Of a stretch of DNA of 64,000 bases, positions 34,378-40,950 are shown piece after piece (position 1 is the stretch's first letter; the number at the start of each line of letters is the position of its first letter). The translations under genes were made by a program, and so were the position numbers. This DNA is from Spirochaetales bacterium (lineage in GTDB: Bacteria > Spirochaetota > Spirochaetia > Treponematales > UBA12059): NCBI GenBank assembly GCA_016926955.1, contig JAFGNN010000065.1:62001-126000 (forward strand), given 5' to 3'. The notes under the pieces were generated by a model. It worked only from the letters and a program-made list of their open reading frames with translations. It was not told where the DNA came from and searched no databases.

Positions 34378-34436
34378 ACAATAAGGTTGTCGGGCATCCG
34401 ATACTCTGATGAGACGACCCTACGAACGGAGTGGCC

Positions 34437-36665
34437 ATGTCGAGCAAGGATCGAAAGGACTCCCGGCACCTCGGATCGGAAGCGGAGCTTCCTCCGGATC
34501 GCGAGCTCGAGCAGTACGGCGTTTGGGTGAAATCCGAACCCGAAGACGTCGAGGAGCTCGAGATCGAGCGCGATGCGGTGGACGAGATGTTGCCTGAAAT
34601 TGACGATACGGGCTCCCTGCCCGAGATAGGCGGGCTCGATCCGGACGGGAACAGGTTCCTGTCCGCCGACGAGGAGCGCCTGCTCGACAGCATGGATCTG
34701 CCCGGCCCCGTCTCGGCGTTCGACGATACCGCCGACTCGCGGGAATCCGAGCTCCCCGAGCTCGGGTCCGGAGTCATCGACATCGAGCTCGACGAGCTGG
34801 AGTCCGCTCCGCGTCCGTCGCCGCGCTTGCCGGATCAGGCGGCTCCGCGCGCGGACGCCGACCTCGAGATATTCTCTCCCGAGGATTTCGGCGTCGAGCT
34901 CGAGGCGGAAGGTCCATCCGAGACGTCCGGCACCTCCTTCGACCAGGAAGCAGGGAGTCCGGGCGAGAACGCCTTCGAACCGATCGACATCGATCTCCAG
35001 TTCGACGACACCATCCCCAGCCCTATGGTCTCGGAAGGGGACGAGGTATCGTTCGACCTGGACGAGATAATCCCCGCCCCCTCCGCCAGTCCCAAGGGTT
35101 TCGAGACGGTCACCGAATTTGACGATTTCCTCGGCGCGGAGGAAAGCCTCTCGCCCTCGGCGGGATCGGGCGCCGCTCCGGCCGCGGAGGCCGAATCGGT
35201 CGAGATCGATCTCGACAGCATCGGCGGAGCCCCTTCGGCTCCTGTCTCCGCGTCCGCTTCTCAGAAACGCGCAGCCTCGGCCGATTCCCTTCCCGACGAG
35301 CTCGGCGCCTCCGACGGGCTCCCCGAGCTCGTGCTCGACGAGACTCCTTCCCGTGACTCGACGTTCGACGATCTCGGCGCGCTGGAACGGGACCTCGCGT
35401 CCGTACCCGCCCGCGCCGCCGCGGCGGAATCATCCGACCTGCTGAAACGCATAGCCGAAGACCTTGCCGGAATCCGCGGCGAGCTCGTCACGCTCAAGCG
35501 CCAGCTCAATGAACTGAAGGGAAGCGGCGATACGCTCGCCCCCGCCGCTGGCGCGGATCGCCAGGAACGCGCGGGAGGCTTCTTCGACGAGGAGGAGGAC
35601 GAGACCATCGCCCTTACCGGGGACGAGCTGGACAACATCCTCAACACCGCCGCCTTCACCGAGGAGACGGCCGAAGGCGAGCCCGTCTCCGCAGGCGACT
35701 CGGCCTCCTACTCCGCGACCGAAACCGAGCTCCTGCCCGAGGATGGCGAGTACGCCAGCTCGCCGGCAATCGAGGAAATCCGCCTCGAACCCGGCCACGA
35801 CGGAGACGGCGAACCGGTACGCGACGACGCCCTCGATGGCATCCTGGAGGAAGGCATACACCCGCTGACCCCCGCGCTCGAGGACACCGCTTACCTGGAG
35901 GAATCACTCGAGGGCGAAGAGCCGCTGGAGCTTGACGCGGAGCCGCTCGAAGACACGCCCCTCGCCGAGCCGGACCTCGACGATTTCGATCTCGCCGACG
36001 AAGCCGACATCCTGGGTTCCGGCGAGGACCTGCCCGTGCTCGAAGACGCCGAGGACGCCTCGGGCATGAGCCTCGAGGACATTCCCTTCGACGTCCCCGC
36101 CGCGGAAGCGCCCTCCCCGCTCGGCCAGGATCTCGACGCGCTCGAAACGATCCCCGAAATCGAAACCGACTCCGGGGAGGACGTTCTCGAGCTCGCTGGC
36201 GAAGGATCCGAATTCGAGCTGCCGATCGATGACTTCGTCCTCGAGGACGAGGCCGCGGCTGAATCCGAGATCAACCTGCACGAGGAATCCTCGGTACCGG
36301 AGTCTTTCGACGCCGACGCCGCCTCCGGCCTGACGACGCCGGAATCCCCGTCGGGTTCCGCTTTCACGGGCCCGGCTTCAGAGACCCTCGAGGAAGAGAC
36401 CTTCAGCACGGACGCCGACGGGTTCGACGAGCTCGAGCCTGAATCGGAAGACGAAGTGATCCTCCCCGTCGATACCGACTTCGAGCCAGCCGCGGCTCCC
36501 GCGGGTCCGACCGACAAGGATCCCCTTCGCGACGAGGTCCGGAACGTCCTCTCCTACCTGGACAAACTGCTCGATTCGCTGCCTGACGACAAGATCGAGG
36601 AGTTCGCGCGCTCGGAACACTTCGAAACCTACAAACGCCTGTTCGAGGAACTGGGATTGGTGTGA
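34437..36665 (+). CDS. Very acidic 742-aa protein with conserved ends, unknown function
   Basis: No signal peptide or membrane segment, so cytoplasmic. The body is low-complexity and dominated by Glu/Asp with Ser, Pro and Leu, in repeating 'xLEDxPLAEPDLDD' style segments. Two parts look folded: a coiled coil at about 331-362 (SDLLKRIAEDLAGIRGELVT, LKRQLNELKG) and the C-terminal 45 residues (RNVLSYLDKLLDSLPDDKIE, FARSEHFETYKRLFEELGLV), which read like a conserved protein-binding module. The N-terminus LEQYGVWVKSEPEDVEELE also looks conserved. Start at ATG 34437 with GGAG 6 bases upstream; a GTG two codons earlier overlaps that site. The stop is followed after one base by the next ORF, so the operon is tightly coupled. 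I recognise no named family; a scaffold for the downstream proteins is a guess. Confidence 0.8.
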   Translation: MSSKDRKDSRHLGSEAELPPDRELEQYGVWVKSEPEDVEELEIERDAVDEMLPEIDDTGSLPEIGGLDPDGNRFLSADEERLLDSMDLPGPVSAFDDTADSRESELPELGSGVIDIELDELESAPRPSPRLPDQAAPRADADLEIFSPEDFGVELEAEGPSETSGTSFDQEAGSPGENAFEPIDIDLQFDDTIPSPMVSEGDEVSFDLDEIIPAPSASPKGFETVTEFDDFLGAEESLSPSAGSGAAPAAEAESVEIDLDSIGGAPSAPVSASASQKRAASADSLPDELGASDGLPELVLDETPSRDSTFDDLGALERDLASVPARAAAAESSDLLKRIAEDLAGIRGELVTLKRQLNELKGSGDTLAPAAGADRQERAGGFFDEEEDETIALTGDELDNILNTAAFTEETAEGEPVSAGDSASYSATETELLPEDGEYASSPAIEEIRLEPGHDGDGEPVRDDALDGILEEGIHPLTPALEDTAYLEESLEGEEPLELDAEPLEDTPLAEPDLDDFDLADEADILGSGEDLPVLEDAEDASGMSLEDIPFDVPAAEAPSPLGQDLDALETIPEIETDSGEDVLELAGEGSEFELPIDDFVLEDEAAAESEINLHEESSVPESFDADAASGLTTPESPSGSAFTGPASETLEEETFSTDADGFDELEPESEDEVILPVDTDFEPAAAPAGPTDKDPLRDEVRNVLSYLDKLLDSLPDDKIEEFARSEHFETYKRLFEELGLV

Positions 36666-36666
36666 G

Positions 36667-36777
36667 ATGAGCCTCCTTGAACGAGCCCTCTCGGGTAGCG
36701 TCCCCGGTCGTCCCGAACGGGATGGGTTGCTCAGGCGGGCCCTCGAAGCCGGCCACGAAAAAAAAAAGCCCCGGTAG
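36667..36777 (+). CDS. Short ORF, probable N-terminal part of the split gene
   Basis: ATG lies one base after the previous stop. It encodes 36 residues: MSLLERALSGSVPGRPERDG then LLRRALEAGHEKKKPR, ending at a TAG. The sequence has a clear helical repeat (LLERAL, LLRRAL) and ordinary codon use. It stops only because of the reading frame after a run of ten A; one base back (-1) the frame continues through a Pro-rich linker straight into the 297-aa ORF at 36894, with no stop. I therefore read it as the 5' part of one gene split by programmed slippage, an indel, or a homopolymer error. Confidence 0.5.
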   Translation: MSLLERALSGSVPGRPERDGLLRRALEAGHEKKKPR

Positions 36778-36798
36778 CTGATCCGCCGCGACCGGGGC
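36758..36798. promoter_or_regulatory. A10 slippery run plus stem-loop (possible -1 frameshift signal; also an antisense terminator shape)
   Basis: Ten A (36758-36767) followed by G contain A-AAA-AAG in the reading frame of the upstream ORF, the heptamer used for -1 frameshifting in E. coli dnaX. GCCCCGGT (36768-36775) and ACCGGGGC (36791-36798) then form an 8-bp perfect stem with a 15-base loop. Spacing is shorter than in typical frameshift sites. On the minus strand the same bases read as hairpin plus T10, an intrinsic terminator for antisense transcription. Confidence 0.5.
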
Positions 36799-36893
36799 CG
36801 CGCCCTCGCCCGGCCCCGGGTCACGCTCTTCCCTCGCCCCGACGTTCAGAAACCCCTCCCCCTCCGGCCCGCCGCGCTCCCGGCTCGGCGCGT

Positions 36894-37787
36894 GTGTTGC
36901 CATCGGCCACGCTCGAAGGCTTCGGCAAGCGTCTGGACGCCATCCAGGGATCCTCCGTATGGGTCGCGCTGAAGGCCGCCCGTGAGTTCGCCATCCACCT
37001 ATCGAGCCGGAGATGGGCGCTCTTCCTGCGGACAGGCGAGGACCCGGATTTCCGCTACGTTTCCGGCGCCGGCTTCGACCTTCGCGGGAACGGCGCCGCC
37101 GCCATCCCCGGGGCCACGATCGAACCCTGGCCCATCGCCCACCGCGTCGAGGCTCAGGAACTGGAAACGCTCGTGCGTGCCGCTCCTGCCCTGAGCGCCG
37201 CGGGGCTCGGGCTCATGGAGGCCTTGCGCCTCGGGAGCCGGGCCGTTTTCCTCGCCGAGCGCCCGATCGAACCTCGTCCGAGCGGTTCGCTCGAAACCGC
37301 TCTGGCCTCCTTCGGCTCGAGGCTTGACCCCACCCTCGCCCGGATAACCGGACCGGGAGGCCCTAAGCCCTGCGCCTCCGCCGAGGCCGCCTCCGGGCTC
37401 ATCCGCAGGATGAGGACAGCCAAGGCTTCGCATGCAGTCCTGGCCGCCTTCGACGCTACAGCAATCAGGTCGCTCATGGAGAAGGACCTCTCGGTCGAAC
37501 CCGCGACCTATCTGTCCGTAATGGGGCGCCTCGCCTCCGCCTTGCTCTCGGAGACGGGAGGGGCCTGCGTCTCGGAAGACTCCAGGTTGGTAATCCACGT
37601 CCTGACACGCACGCCGCCTGACCCGGAATTGCTCGCGTCCCAGTTCGCCACGAGCCTCTCCCGCGCCCTCGGCGGTTTCGGCAAGGCCGACCTGCCCATC
37701 CTCCGCTTCCTCGTGATCCACGCGGAAGAACGGGATATCGAGCGATCGGTCGAGGGATTCCTGGCTCCGTTCAAGATCGTGCCTTGA
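36894..37787 (+). CDS. Unknown protein (C-terminal part of the split gene), DUF115 operon
   Basis: A 297-aa reading from GTG 36894, but there is no ribosome site and the frame is open back to 36699 through a Pro/Arg-rich linker, so this is more likely the body of a longer protein begun at 36667. The domain (about 5-290) alternates helices and strands: LEGFGKRLDAIQGSSVWVAL, RWALFLRTGEDPDFRYVSGA, GFDLRGNGAA, SVMGRLASALLSETGGACVS, LPILRFLVIHAEERDIERSV. The front part could be a GAF-like sensor fold, but the match is weak. No enzyme motif or membrane segment. Its stop overlaps the TTG start of the first DUF115 gene, so both are coupled. No family recognised. Confidence 0.75.
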   Translation: MLPSATLEGFGKRLDAIQGSSVWVALKAAREFAIHLSSRRWALFLRTGEDPDFRYVSGAGFDLRGNGAAAIPGATIEPWPIAHRVEAQELETLVRAAPALSAAGLGLMEALRLGSRAVFLAERPIEPRPSGSLETALASFGSRLDPTLARITGPGGPKPCASAEAASGLIRRMRTAKASHAVLAAFDATAIRSLMEKDLSVEPATYLSVMGRLASALLSETGGACVSEDSRLVIHVLTRTPPDPELLASQFATSLSRALGGFGKADLPILRFLVIHAEERDIERSVEGFLAPFKIVP

Positions 37788-39313
37788 GCGCTTCCGTGAG
37801 CGACCGGATCGATCCATCTCGCTGCCATTCGGGTCGCGACCCGTTCGCCGAAGCTTGCCGTTTCCTCGAAGCCAAGTCCGCGGGCCGCAGGCCCTCGTCC
37901 CTGGTTTCGATCGCGCCGGCGCAAGACTGGCTCGCCCTCGCCGCCGAACGGCTGTGGCCCGGCATCACGATCGTCTCCCTGCAACCGGATCCCGGTTTCC
38001 GCGGAACGGAAGTACCATCCTCCGCTATCAGATGGTACCCCGATTCACCGCGCTGCATCAGGGACTTCCTGGCGGGTACGCTCGAAGGAAGCATGGATGG
38101 CGGCATACTCGTGGCCGAATGGCGCCCGGCCCTTGCGCGCTACCCCGGCTTCGCCACCGCGGCCGGCACCGAGCTCGCCGAGGCTCTCCGCTTCCTGTCC
38201 TCGGCGCGGAACAGCGAGCGGTACTGGGCTCGCCGCTGGCTGCTCAATTCCTGCAGGAACTTCCTCCGTCTCGATTCCGTCTCCGTAATTCGACGCGATG
38301 CGCGTCCCGTCCTGCTGGCCGGGGCGGGTCCCGGGTTGGAGAGCGCGCTGGACGAACTTTCGGAGCTCCGGGGACGCCTCAGGGTCTGGACTCTCGCCTC
38401 GGCGGCGGAAGCCTGCGTCGTGCGGGGATTCCATCCGGAGCTCTTGTTCGCGAGCGATGCCGGAGCCTGGAGCCTTCTGCATTTCAGGTTTCCCGAAGCG
38501 CTTCCCGTCGTCGCGCCGATACACGCAAAGCTGCCCGCGGGCATGGTGGAGCGGGGAAACCTCGTGCCCGCCGAACTCGGGATCTTCCATGACGCGCCCC
38601 TGCTCGCCGCGCTCGGCGCTGAGGCCGTTCCGCTCGCGCCGCACGGCACCGCGGCGGGAAGCGCTGCCTCGCTCGCCGCCTGGTCGGGCGCAACTGCCGT
38701 GGTCATGGCCGGCGTCGATTTCGCCGCCCTGGACCTCCGCGACCACGCCCGTCCTTACGCGTTCGATGCCCTCGACCGCTCGGGCGAAAGCCGTCTGAAG
38801 CCGTCGCATTCGGCCGTCTTCTCGCGCGTGACGACACACTACCCGAGCCGGACCGTTGGCCGGTGGCGGGTTTCACGCGCTTTCGAAGCCTACTCCGGAG
38901 CCGGCCTGCCCTGCGCCGCCGCTCTGACCCTGAGCGCCTCGCCCGCATCTCCGTTCTCGATTCCGCGCATCGACGCGGCCGAGGCACGGTCCCTTCTCGC
39001 TCCCGCCCCTGAATCGAACGCCTCGATCCACGGTCCGTTCCCGACTCGGCTCACGCGAAGCGAACGCGAAAACCTTCTCCCCGGCCTTCTCGGGCGCCTC
39101 GCCGAAAGCGTGGCCACGGCCCTCGAGCGCCTGGAACCCGGCGCCCGCTTGCCGGACCCGATCCGGCAGGGCCTCGAGGCCTTCTGCGGCGCCGCTTCCT
39201 CCGAATGGCTGGCCGAAAGGGCGCGCGGAGCGAATACCCCATCCCTGACAGCCGCCACGGCCGCTCTCGCGAGAGAGGCCCCCCGGGAGCTCCTCGAGGA
39301 ACTGCTGGGATGA
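37784..39313 (+). CDS. DUF115 / MptE-like protein, paralogue 1 (motility accessory factor type)
   Basis: A 509-aa protein. The central part carries the DUF115 Rossmann-like core: RPVLLAGAGPGLESALDELS, where GAGPGL is the nucleotide-binding turn, then RVWTLASAAEACVVRGFHPE, LLFASDAGAWSLLHFRF and VVMAGVDFAALDLRDHARPY with conserved acidic residues. Homologues are annotated as 6-hydroxymethylpterin diphosphokinase MptE-like or Maf; in Campylobacter and Helicobacter relatives Maf proteins put nonulosonic acid sugars on flagellin. The start is a TTG (37784) that overlaps the previous TGA (TTGA), or a GTG four codons later. This copy looks more diverged than the next one. It may glycosylate flagellins, but no flagellar gene lies in the window. 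Confidence 0.8.
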   Translation: MSASVSDRIDPSRCHSGRDPFAEACRFLEAKSAGRRPSSLVSIAPAQDWLALAAERLWPGITIVSLQPDPGFRGTEVPSSAIRWYPDSPRCIRDFLAGTLEGSMDGGILVAEWRPALARYPGFATAAGTELAEALRFLSSARNSERYWARRWLLNSCRNFLRLDSVSVIRRDARPVLLAGAGPGLESALDELSELRGRLRVWTLASAAEACVVRGFHPELLFASDAGAWSLLHFRFPEALPVVAPIHAKLPAGMVERGNLVPAELGIFHDAPLLAALGAEAVPLAPHGTAAGSAASLAAWSGATAVVMAGVDFAALDLRDHARPYAFDALDRSGESRLKPSHSAVFSRVTTHYPSRTVGRWRVSRAFEAYSGAGLPCAAALTLSASPASPFSIPRIDAAEARSLLAPAPESNASIHGPFPTRLTRSERENLLPGLLGRLAESVATALERLEPGARLPDPIRQGLEAFCGAASSEWLAERARGANTPSLTAATAALAREAPRELLEELLG

Positions 39314-40950
39314 ACGAGACGCTCGAACGGAACTTGCTGGCGCTCGCGGCCGGGCACGGTCGTATCGCCGGGCTCCTCTCCGGAACTGCGCCAGATCCGG
39401 CCGTCTCCTTCGTAAAGGCGAGGTCGGGCGCGCTCGTGCCGATCGTCGAGCGCGGTGGTCGAAGCATCCGGCTTCACGGGCTCTACGATCCGGCGGAGGA
39501 TGGCAGGCGGGCGGCCGGCCGCCCGGAACGAAGCGCCTTCGTCCTCGCCTACGGGCTCGGCGCCGCATGGCACATCCTTCCCTTCCTCGACGATCCGCGG
39601 ACGAGCGGCGTGCTCTGCGTCGAGCCCGACCTTCGGATGGCGCGATCGCTGGTGGAGGCCGTGGATTTCGCGCGCGTTTTCGCCGATCCCCGATTCACCC
39701 TGCTCGTAGACGCGGACCCGCAGGCGGCGGGAAGGGAGCTCCCGGGGACCTTCCTTCCGTCGATTCATGGCGGCTTGAACTCGTGCCCGCTCAGGCCGCG
39801 CGTGGAACTCGACCGCCCCTGGTTTGAGGCTTGCGCGCTGGGCATAGATCGGGCGCTATCCGCGATCCGCGACGATTTCAGCGTCCAGGCCCATTTCGGC
39901 CTTGCCTGGTTCAGGAACACGGTCCGGAACCTCCCGCTGGCGGAAGGCGCCTACCCTCCGCTGCCGCCGATAAAGAAGGCACTGGTGACCGCCGCCGGAC
40001 CATCGCTGGAGGACCAGCTCGAAGCGGTCCGCACAGCCAGGAACGGCGCGTTCCTCATAGCGACCGATACGAGCCTGCCCGCGCTCACGGCCGCCGGCCT
40101 CGAGCCCGACCTCGTGGTCTCCATCGACTGCCAGCACATCAGCTATTACCATTTCGTCGGAAACCAGCCGGACATCCCCCTGGTACTCGACCTCGCGTCG
40201 CCTCCCACGGTGGCGCGGCGCTTCCGGGACCTGCGCTTCGTCTCGTCGGGACATCCGTTCTGCCGCTACGTTTCGGCCGAATGGCGGAACTTTCCGGCCA
40301 TCGACACGAGCGGGGGGAACGTGGCCATGGCGGCGCTCTCGCTTGCCGAGTCGCTCGGCGCGGAGCGTGCGATCCTCTACGGGGCCGACTACTCGTATCC
40401 GGAAGGATCGAGCTACGCCCGCGGCACCTACATCCACCGGCTTTTCGACGACGGCGCCGGCCGGCTCCGGCCGCTCGAGTCCGCCTTCTCGGGCTTCCTG
40501 TATCGCAGCGATCCGCTCGCGCGCGAGGAGGACGACCGGGGCTTCCGCTACGTGTCGCGGCCGCTCGAAGCCTACCGTTCTCGTCTCGAAGCCTTCGCCG
40601 CGCGCTCGCGCATGCGCGTATCCGCCGCGGACGGCCGCGGCGTGGCGCTCCGGCTGCGGGGAAGCGTCTCGGGTCTGCGAGGGCGGCCGCGTTTTTTCGG
40701 GGCGGGTTCCGCCTCAATGAGCGCGTCGCGCTTCCTCGCCAAGTATCGCGACGAACTGGCCGCTCTCGGCAGCCCGGAAACGCCGGCTGCCGTCCATCTG
40801 GCGCGAGTCGATGCGGCGTCGCGGGACCTGTGGACCACCTTGCTGCCGCTGGCCGCCGCGCTCGGCGGAGGAAGCGAACATTCGCCGGAGGACGCGCTCG
40901 AAGCGGCGAGGCGTCGCGCCCTGGAGATACTCGGCGAGGCGCTCTCCTGA
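39310..40950 (+). CDS. DUF115 / MptE-like protein, paralogue 2 (motility accessory factor type)
   Basis: A 546-aa protein, start ATG 39310 overlapping the previous stop (ATGA). The DUF115 core is better kept than in paralogue 1: IKKALVTAAGPSLEDQLEAV, then GAFLIATDTSLPALTAAGLE, PDLVVSIDCQHISYYHFVGN and ERAILYGADYSYPEGSSYAR. The N-terminal ~200 residues (for example AFVLAYGLGAAWHILPFLDD, GVLCVEPDLRMARSLVEAV) form a second alpha/beta domain typical of Maf proteins. Proposed role: transfer of a sugar to flagellin or another envelope protein, or a pterin-related kinase; the sequence does not decide. The two paralogues are similar in length and order of motifs, so they probably arose by tandem duplication. 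Last gene of the operon; the next gene is convergent. Confidence 0.85.
   Translation: MNETLERNLLALAAGHGRIAGLLSGTAPDPAVSFVKARSGALVPIVERGGRSIRLHGLYDPAEDGRRAAGRPERSAFVLAYGLGAAWHILPFLDDPRTSGVLCVEPDLRMARSLVEAVDFARVFADPRFTLLVDADPQAAGRELPGTFLPSIHGGLNSCPLRPRVELDRPWFEACALGIDRALSAIRDDFSVQAHFGLAWFRNTVRNLPLAEGAYPPLPPIKKALVTAAGPSLEDQLEAVRTARNGAFLIATDTSLPALTAAGLEPDLVVSIDCQHISYYHFVGNQPDIPLVLDLASPPTVARRFRDLRFVSSGHPFCRYVSAEWRNFPAIDTSGGNVAMAALSLAESLGAERAILYGADYSYPEGSSYARGTYIHRLFDDGAGRLRPLESAFSGFLYRSDPLAREEDDRGFRYVSRPLEAYRSRLEAFAARSRMRVSAADGRGVALRLRGSVSGLRGRPRFFGAGSASMSASRFLAKYRDELAALGSPETPAAVHLARVDAASRDLWTTLLPLAAALGGGSEHSPEDALEAARRRALEILGEALS

Follow-up and report, generated by a model that had tools for sequence, protein, structure and literature searches.

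A short reading frame that ends beside a run of ten A's

The locus studied here raises a simple question: is a gene whose reading frame is broken at a run of ten A's a damaged gene, two genes, or one gene that yields two products? The window, by which we mean the whole 64,000-nucleotide stretch of DNA analysed, belongs to a 3.38-Mb draft genome in 94 contigs (G000). On its plus strand, a gene coding for an acidic protein of 744 aa (34431..36665), with the conserved C-terminus ..EEFARSEHFETYKRLFEELGLV, ends at a TGA (36663-36665), and the ATG of a 36-codon ORF (36667..36777) follows one base further on, at 36667. This ORF codes for MSLLERALSGSVPGRPERDGLLRRALEAGHEKKKPR, an N-terminal tail with two GLL-type motifs, and stops at a TAG (36775-36777). 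Shortly before that stop lies the slippery tract, exactly ten A's (A10, 36758..36767) in the phase xAA AAA AAA AAx with a G at 36768, such that the upstream frame reads GAA AAA AAA AAG and contains the heptamer A_AAA_AAG (36762..36768), whose last base is not conserved. The -1 frame remains open from 36768 to a TGA at 37785-37787, encodes 339 aa past the run (36768..37784, plus strand) and contains a 297-aa ORF. A preliminary description of this DNA had placed the short ORF one base past the preceding stop, had reported ten A's followed by G with A_AAA_AAG in the upstream frame, and had joined the -1 frame to the 297-aa ORF without a stop; the coordinates agree with all three statements. The long frame can be reached from an mRNA containing 11 or 8 A's, or by a -1 shift of the ribosome, and the predicted junction of the resulting protein is ..AGHEKKK(K)APVADPPRPGPR. 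An MptE-like/DUF115 gene (37784..39313) comes next, its TTG start overlapping the long-frame stop (TTGA), and a second MptE-like/DUF115 gene of the same operon lies at 39205..40950, both on the plus strand.

The gene-breaking run is conserved across ten genera

The upstream protein has a conserved C-terminus, which we used as a synteny anchor to locate the locus in relatives. Of 294 genomes in the order, 270 contained its C-terminal 49 aa, and across the order the gene downstream of the anchor frequently begins with MGLL. For the family itself, we compared 20 genomes from 10 genera with a readable locus in each. The run is A10 in 18 of the 20 and A9 in the other two (G017 and G020); it breaks the gene in 19 genomes (17 with A10, two with A9) and is an in-frame A10 in G008. 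All 19 broken members share the phase seen in the window and have an open long frame, the total length being 153-403 aa. The shift required to enter the long frame is -1 for the A10 members and +1 for the A9 members, whereas G008 requires none, and slippage there would truncate the protein, thereby reversing the polarity. The A9 evidence consists of two cases only, both from draft genomes. A_AAA_AAG is retained in most family members; the run is followed by G, C or T, with A10C in G010, G015 and G009 and A10T in G014.

The alignment of homologues proposed in the preliminary description, to see whether the A run and the frame are kept, thus gave a clear answer, both being kept in 19 of 20 family genomes. 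The result that would have refuted its reading, homologues with one uninterrupted frame, was absent in close relatives: congeners share the interrupted frame, and single-frame homologues are confined to other families apart from the in-frame A10 of G008. The same comparison bears on another objection, a homopolymer indel introduced by sequencing or assembly. Homopolymers are error-prone and the window comes from a draft of 94 contigs, but an error would not account for an identical tract and break shared by 19 family genomes, and we reject this alternative, to which we attach practically no weight.

We also considered a phase-variable contingency locus, in which replication changes the run length and cells differ between an on state (A11 or A8) and an off state. 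A long homopolymer within a coding region, a length that differs in two species (A9) and the averaging of populations in metagenome-assembled genomes are all compatible with such a locus. However, the run is in frame in 1 of 20 genomes, compared to about one third expected (P(≤1/20) ~0.003, the species not being independent), and ten A's are found in 18 of 20 as well as in both diverged copies of the locus in G006. The coexistence of in-frame and out-of-frame alleles through changes in length, the mark of a phase-variable gene, was not found in the family, since the sole in-frame allele is in another phase at a length of ten. We therefore regard phase variation as very unlikely.

Two members of the family deserve separate mention. 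G014 has lost most of the sensor part, leaving a long frame of 153 aa, and retains the A10 break in its usual phase. The two copies of the locus in the G006 assembly (L027 on contig C64 and L068 on contig C27) differ by 10 mismatches in 350 bases; these copies are probably strain variants within the assembly.

Readable loci from the remaining families of the order mostly hold one uninterrupted ORF that starts with MGLL, lacks the run, and joins an N-terminal tail of the same kind to the domain. Genus g74 of family f3 is an exception (L040, L048, L049 and L085): its genes carry in-frame runs of 10-12 A's in the N-terminal tail, where slippage would shorten the protein; this genus may have gained the same device independently, with its polarity reversed. 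A few A8-A9 runs constitute further exceptions elsewhere in the order, mainly in low-GC genomes. The start-motif rule failed to recognise the gene following the anchor at about 18 of 60 extra loci from other families, and absence of the run outside the family was scored only where the ORF was seen.

Since 19 of 20 family genomes, from 10 genera, keep a run that breaks the gene, we read the locus as a case of programmed slippage. This conservation lends strong support to the earlier inference that recoding yields a short and a long product, and we have little doubt that recoding of some kind operates at the A10 run; slippage itself remains unmeasured, no RNA or protein data being available.

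Tracts of ten A's are rare and recur in dnaX

Pattern searches for A runs in 23 genomes returned 52 exact A10 tracts, with 0-6 per genome and four in the window genome. Nineteen of these fall in the gene described here (18 genomes) and 10 in dnaX, a textbook slippage gene, so that the two genes together hold 29 of the 52. Within the window, the run at 36758-36767 is the sole A-run longer than six on the plus strand, and lysine codons in the neighbouring genes are AAG in 54 of 65 cases and AAA in 11. The A10 of dnaX has the same phase as that of our gene and is likewise followed by G, C or T, and in 9 of 10 cases a stop in the shifted frame lies at most 5 codons from the start of the run. The dnaX tract of the window genome (G000:C77:70400-70411, minus strand; L188/L002) lies about 165 bases past the conserved N-terminal domain, and its shifted frame stops immediately (GEKKKA-stop); judged from sequence alone, it is a predicted tau/gamma-type slippage site. 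Other genera of the family also have an A10 in dnaX, as do G028 and G041 (family f4) and G024 (family f3), several genomes being without it. The remaining two A10 tracts of the window genome (L001/L059, C11:64140, and L079, C25:27707) directly follow about nine C's (C9A10) and are apparently located at gene edges.

Coding selection on both sides of the run

We counted substitutions between close pairs over the first 150-180 bases after the run. At long-frame positions 1/2/3, they numbered 16/10/20 between G018 and G006 and 16/11/22 between G010 and G015, while before the run the G018/G006 pair differs mostly at third positions of the short frame. Directly after the run, changes thus fall mostly on third positions of the long frame, and in G018/G006 they do so ahead of any usable start. 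These counts are modest; as far as such comparisons can tell, coding selection acts on both sides of the run.

Another reading is that the locus comprises two separate genes, the second being translated by re-initiation at an ATGA or GTGA overlap or from an internal start. In G002 and G001, the stop of the short ORF overlaps a long-frame ATG or GTG. The window has GTAG at that site instead, and no start for about 42 codons: the earliest start-like codons of its long frame are a GTG/TTG pair about 42 codons downstream of the run, and no ATG occurs within the first 100 codons after it. Likewise, the long frame is devoid of a start codon for 61 codons after the run in G018 and for 68 in G006, within the conserved protein, and the single-ORF homologues of other families fuse a similar N-terminal tail to the domain. 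Given these startless stretches and the single-ORF homologues, we rejected independent genes, an arrangement that we hold to be extremely improbable.

The DUF115 gene starts at most about 30 nt from the long-frame stop in 20 of 20 genomes; in 14 of them the start comes before that stop or overlaps with it. Because DUF115 starts at the stop of the long frame, the fraction of slipped products may also set its translation, and slippage may thus set DUF115 output as well.

Probable slippage by the polymerase rather than the ribosome

The preliminary description had offered both -1 ribosomal frameshifting and slippage of RNA polymerase. The comparative data favour the polymerase, not the ribosome, and we consider it probable that this is one gene with two products made through programmed, mainly transcriptional, slippage at a conserved A10; slippage, its rate and the role of the polymerase are all inferred. 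An A or T homopolymer of about nine or more at the frame transition (A10 in 18 and A9 in 2 of 20) and conservation of the run and of the overlapping ORFs among homologues (19 of 20 family genomes) are both as expected of such a gene. The occurrence of both shift directions among orthologues is a mark of transcriptional realignment (Antonov 2013, PMC3711429), and our locus bears it, since the A9 members need the opposite shift and G008 needs none. A conserved run length is a mark of purposeful slippage (Baranov 2005, PMC1088944), and here the length stays at ten. The polymerase is further favoured by the base after the run, which may be G, C or T both in this gene and in dnaX, and by the lack of any single conserved stem.

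Programmed -1 ribosomal frameshifting at A_AAA_AAG, aided by a downstream stem as in dnaX, would give the same two products, and the heptamer is correctly framed in most members. However, the A9 members would require a +1 or -2 shift, the zero-frame heptamer is not conserved throughout the family (its last base being C in G010, G015 and G009 and T in G014), and the run is kept at ten although a heptamer with six A's suffices. The tRNA complement does not fit either. In E. coli, AAG is decoded only by tRNA-Lys(UUU), whereas ARAGORN detected a dedicated tRNA-Lys(CUU) in the window genome and 13 relatives, and its anticodon arm was found in 23 of 23 genomes; AAG is thus not left solely to tRNA-Lys(UUU). 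For Thermus dnaX, tRNA-Lys(CUU) has been tied to polymerase rather than ribosomal slippage (PMC5009743), and by the same argument its presence weakens the case for ribosomal slippage at A_AAA_AAG here.

RNA structure lends some weight to the ribosome. An 8-bp perfect stem had been described immediately after the run, and it does exist on the plus strand (GCCCCGGT/ACCGGGGC, 36768-36775/36791-36798). Its first base coincides with the final base of the heptamer, which leaves no spacer; it is absent from the minimum-energy fold, in which a stem forms at ~36790..36822 on the plus strand (z -1.28), and is not conserved as such. Over the 20 genomes, an average enrichment of predicted structure is seen immediately 3' of the run (mean z -1.3 to -1.5, falling to about 0 at 100 nt and beyond). 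A dnaX-type site would have a stem at a spacer of 5-9 nt; the structure observed past the run is heterogeneous. The strongest stems were found in G001, G002 and G005, structure is absent or weak in many genomes, and no single stem is conserved across the 20 relatives. Polymerase slippage does not need this enrichment, which therefore counts against a reading based on the polymerase only, and a ribosomal contribution is not excluded because of it. As the main explanation, ribosomal frameshifting nonetheless appears unlikely to us.

The stem had also suggested an antisense terminator, as the hairpin of the window precedes T10 on the minus strand. Upon folding of the minus strand of 20 relatives, no conserved hairpin was found before T10; in most of them the hairpin is no better than in shuffled sequence, yet the run persists. 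This possibility was thus dismissed, and its chance of being correct is negligible.

The long product resembles PelD in the order of its folds

An AlphaFold2 model of the 339 residues, built on the 19-member alignment, had a mean pLDDT of 81. Residues 44-192 (36897..37343, plus strand) match GAF domains (Z 10.9 to 3ci6) and residues 195-339 (37350..37784, plus strand) match GGDEF domains (Z 10.4 to 4zmm). No GGDEF or GGEEF motif occurs in the alignment of the long product, which has no Pfam match at E 0.1, one homologue giving one weak, unrelated match. The PelD structure 4etz was among the Foldseek matches of the long product. PelD is a c-di-GMP receptor in which a GAF domain is followed by a degenerate GGDEF domain, and the modelled protein has the same order of two folds with the GGDEF motif lost. 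Unlike PelD, it has no match to a sequence family and no membrane part that we could see, and it carries an N-terminal tail with GLL motifs. We thus describe the long product as sensor-like and, from its model, as resembling PelD in fold order, without any claim of membership and in the absence of data on c-di-GMP binding. From sequence alone, we infer that the N-terminal tail (MSLLERA..GLLRRA..) may act as a short interaction motif.

A proposed two-product gene and its known counterparts

According to the mechanism that we propose, RNA polymerase would copy the ten template T's into A runs of differing length. A transcript that has 10 A's would give the 36-aa N-terminal peptide alone, and one that has 11 (or 8) the full protein, comprising the N-terminal tail, the linker, the GAF domain and the degenerate GGDEF domain. 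The ratio of tail alone to full protein would be fixed by the polymerase, and through the stop-start overlap the slipped fraction might feed into translation of DUF115. More speculatively, slippage could be a fixed set-point in a spirochaete operon, between a free interaction peptide of 30-45 residues (MGLL..KKK) and the same peptide attached to a nucleotide-sensing GAF/degenerate-GGDEF part, and could also determine, by coupling of stop and start, the output of the glycosyltransferase-like DUF115 genes. In this tentative proposal, the two-product outcome rather than its polarity would be under selection, because G008 and genus g74 (in-frame A10-A12) use the opposite route. Natural orthologues of opposite polarity make the two-product hypothesis testable. 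Standard annotation will label the gene as broken, or as two genes, in all these genomes.

Few conserved, non-mobile chromosomal genes are known to depend on slippage; dnaX, mxiE, spa13 and tssM are the examples in the sections of the literature available to us. The relevant passages of two slippage surveys name no such spirochaete gene, and a search for Treponema and transcriptional slippage returned no paper among those available to us. The present locus adds a signalling-type gene that has kept this arrangement over ten genera. The gene is new; the mechanism proposed for it, programmed transcriptional realignment, is already known.

Escherichia coli dnaX relies on -1 ribosomal frameshifting at A_AAA_AAG. 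Our gene shares the in-frame heptamer in most of its members and departs from E. coli dnaX in its variable base after the run, both shift directions, the tRNA-Lys(CUU) and the lack of a conserved stem and spacer. Thermus thermophilus dnaX has an A-run of the same kind (A9, transcriptional slippage; PMC1088944, PMC5009743), but slippage there yields the short product, whereas here it would yield the long product. In Shigella flexneri, mxiE and spa13 are similar in that the longer product requires slippage and, for spa13, in that the slipped fraction also affects an overlapping downstream gene (PMC1088944, PMC5009743); these are secretion-system genes, in contrast to a GAF/degenerate-GGDEF protein encoded upstream of DUF115. 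The closest experimental precedent for the proposed mechanism is tssM, in which a poly-A run precedes an early stop and polymerase slippage produces short and long variants (PMC4256274). Its run is A11, it codes for a large membrane protein of the T6SS, and slippage was proven by mass analysis of cDNA; our gene, by comparison, has an A10 run and a short product of 36 aa, and its slippage is inferred without experiment. In Citrobacter rodentium tssM1 and Yersinia pseudotuberculosis tssM3, both variants and their ratio are required, and these orthologues have opposite polarities (PMC4256274), just as the window genome and G008 do here.
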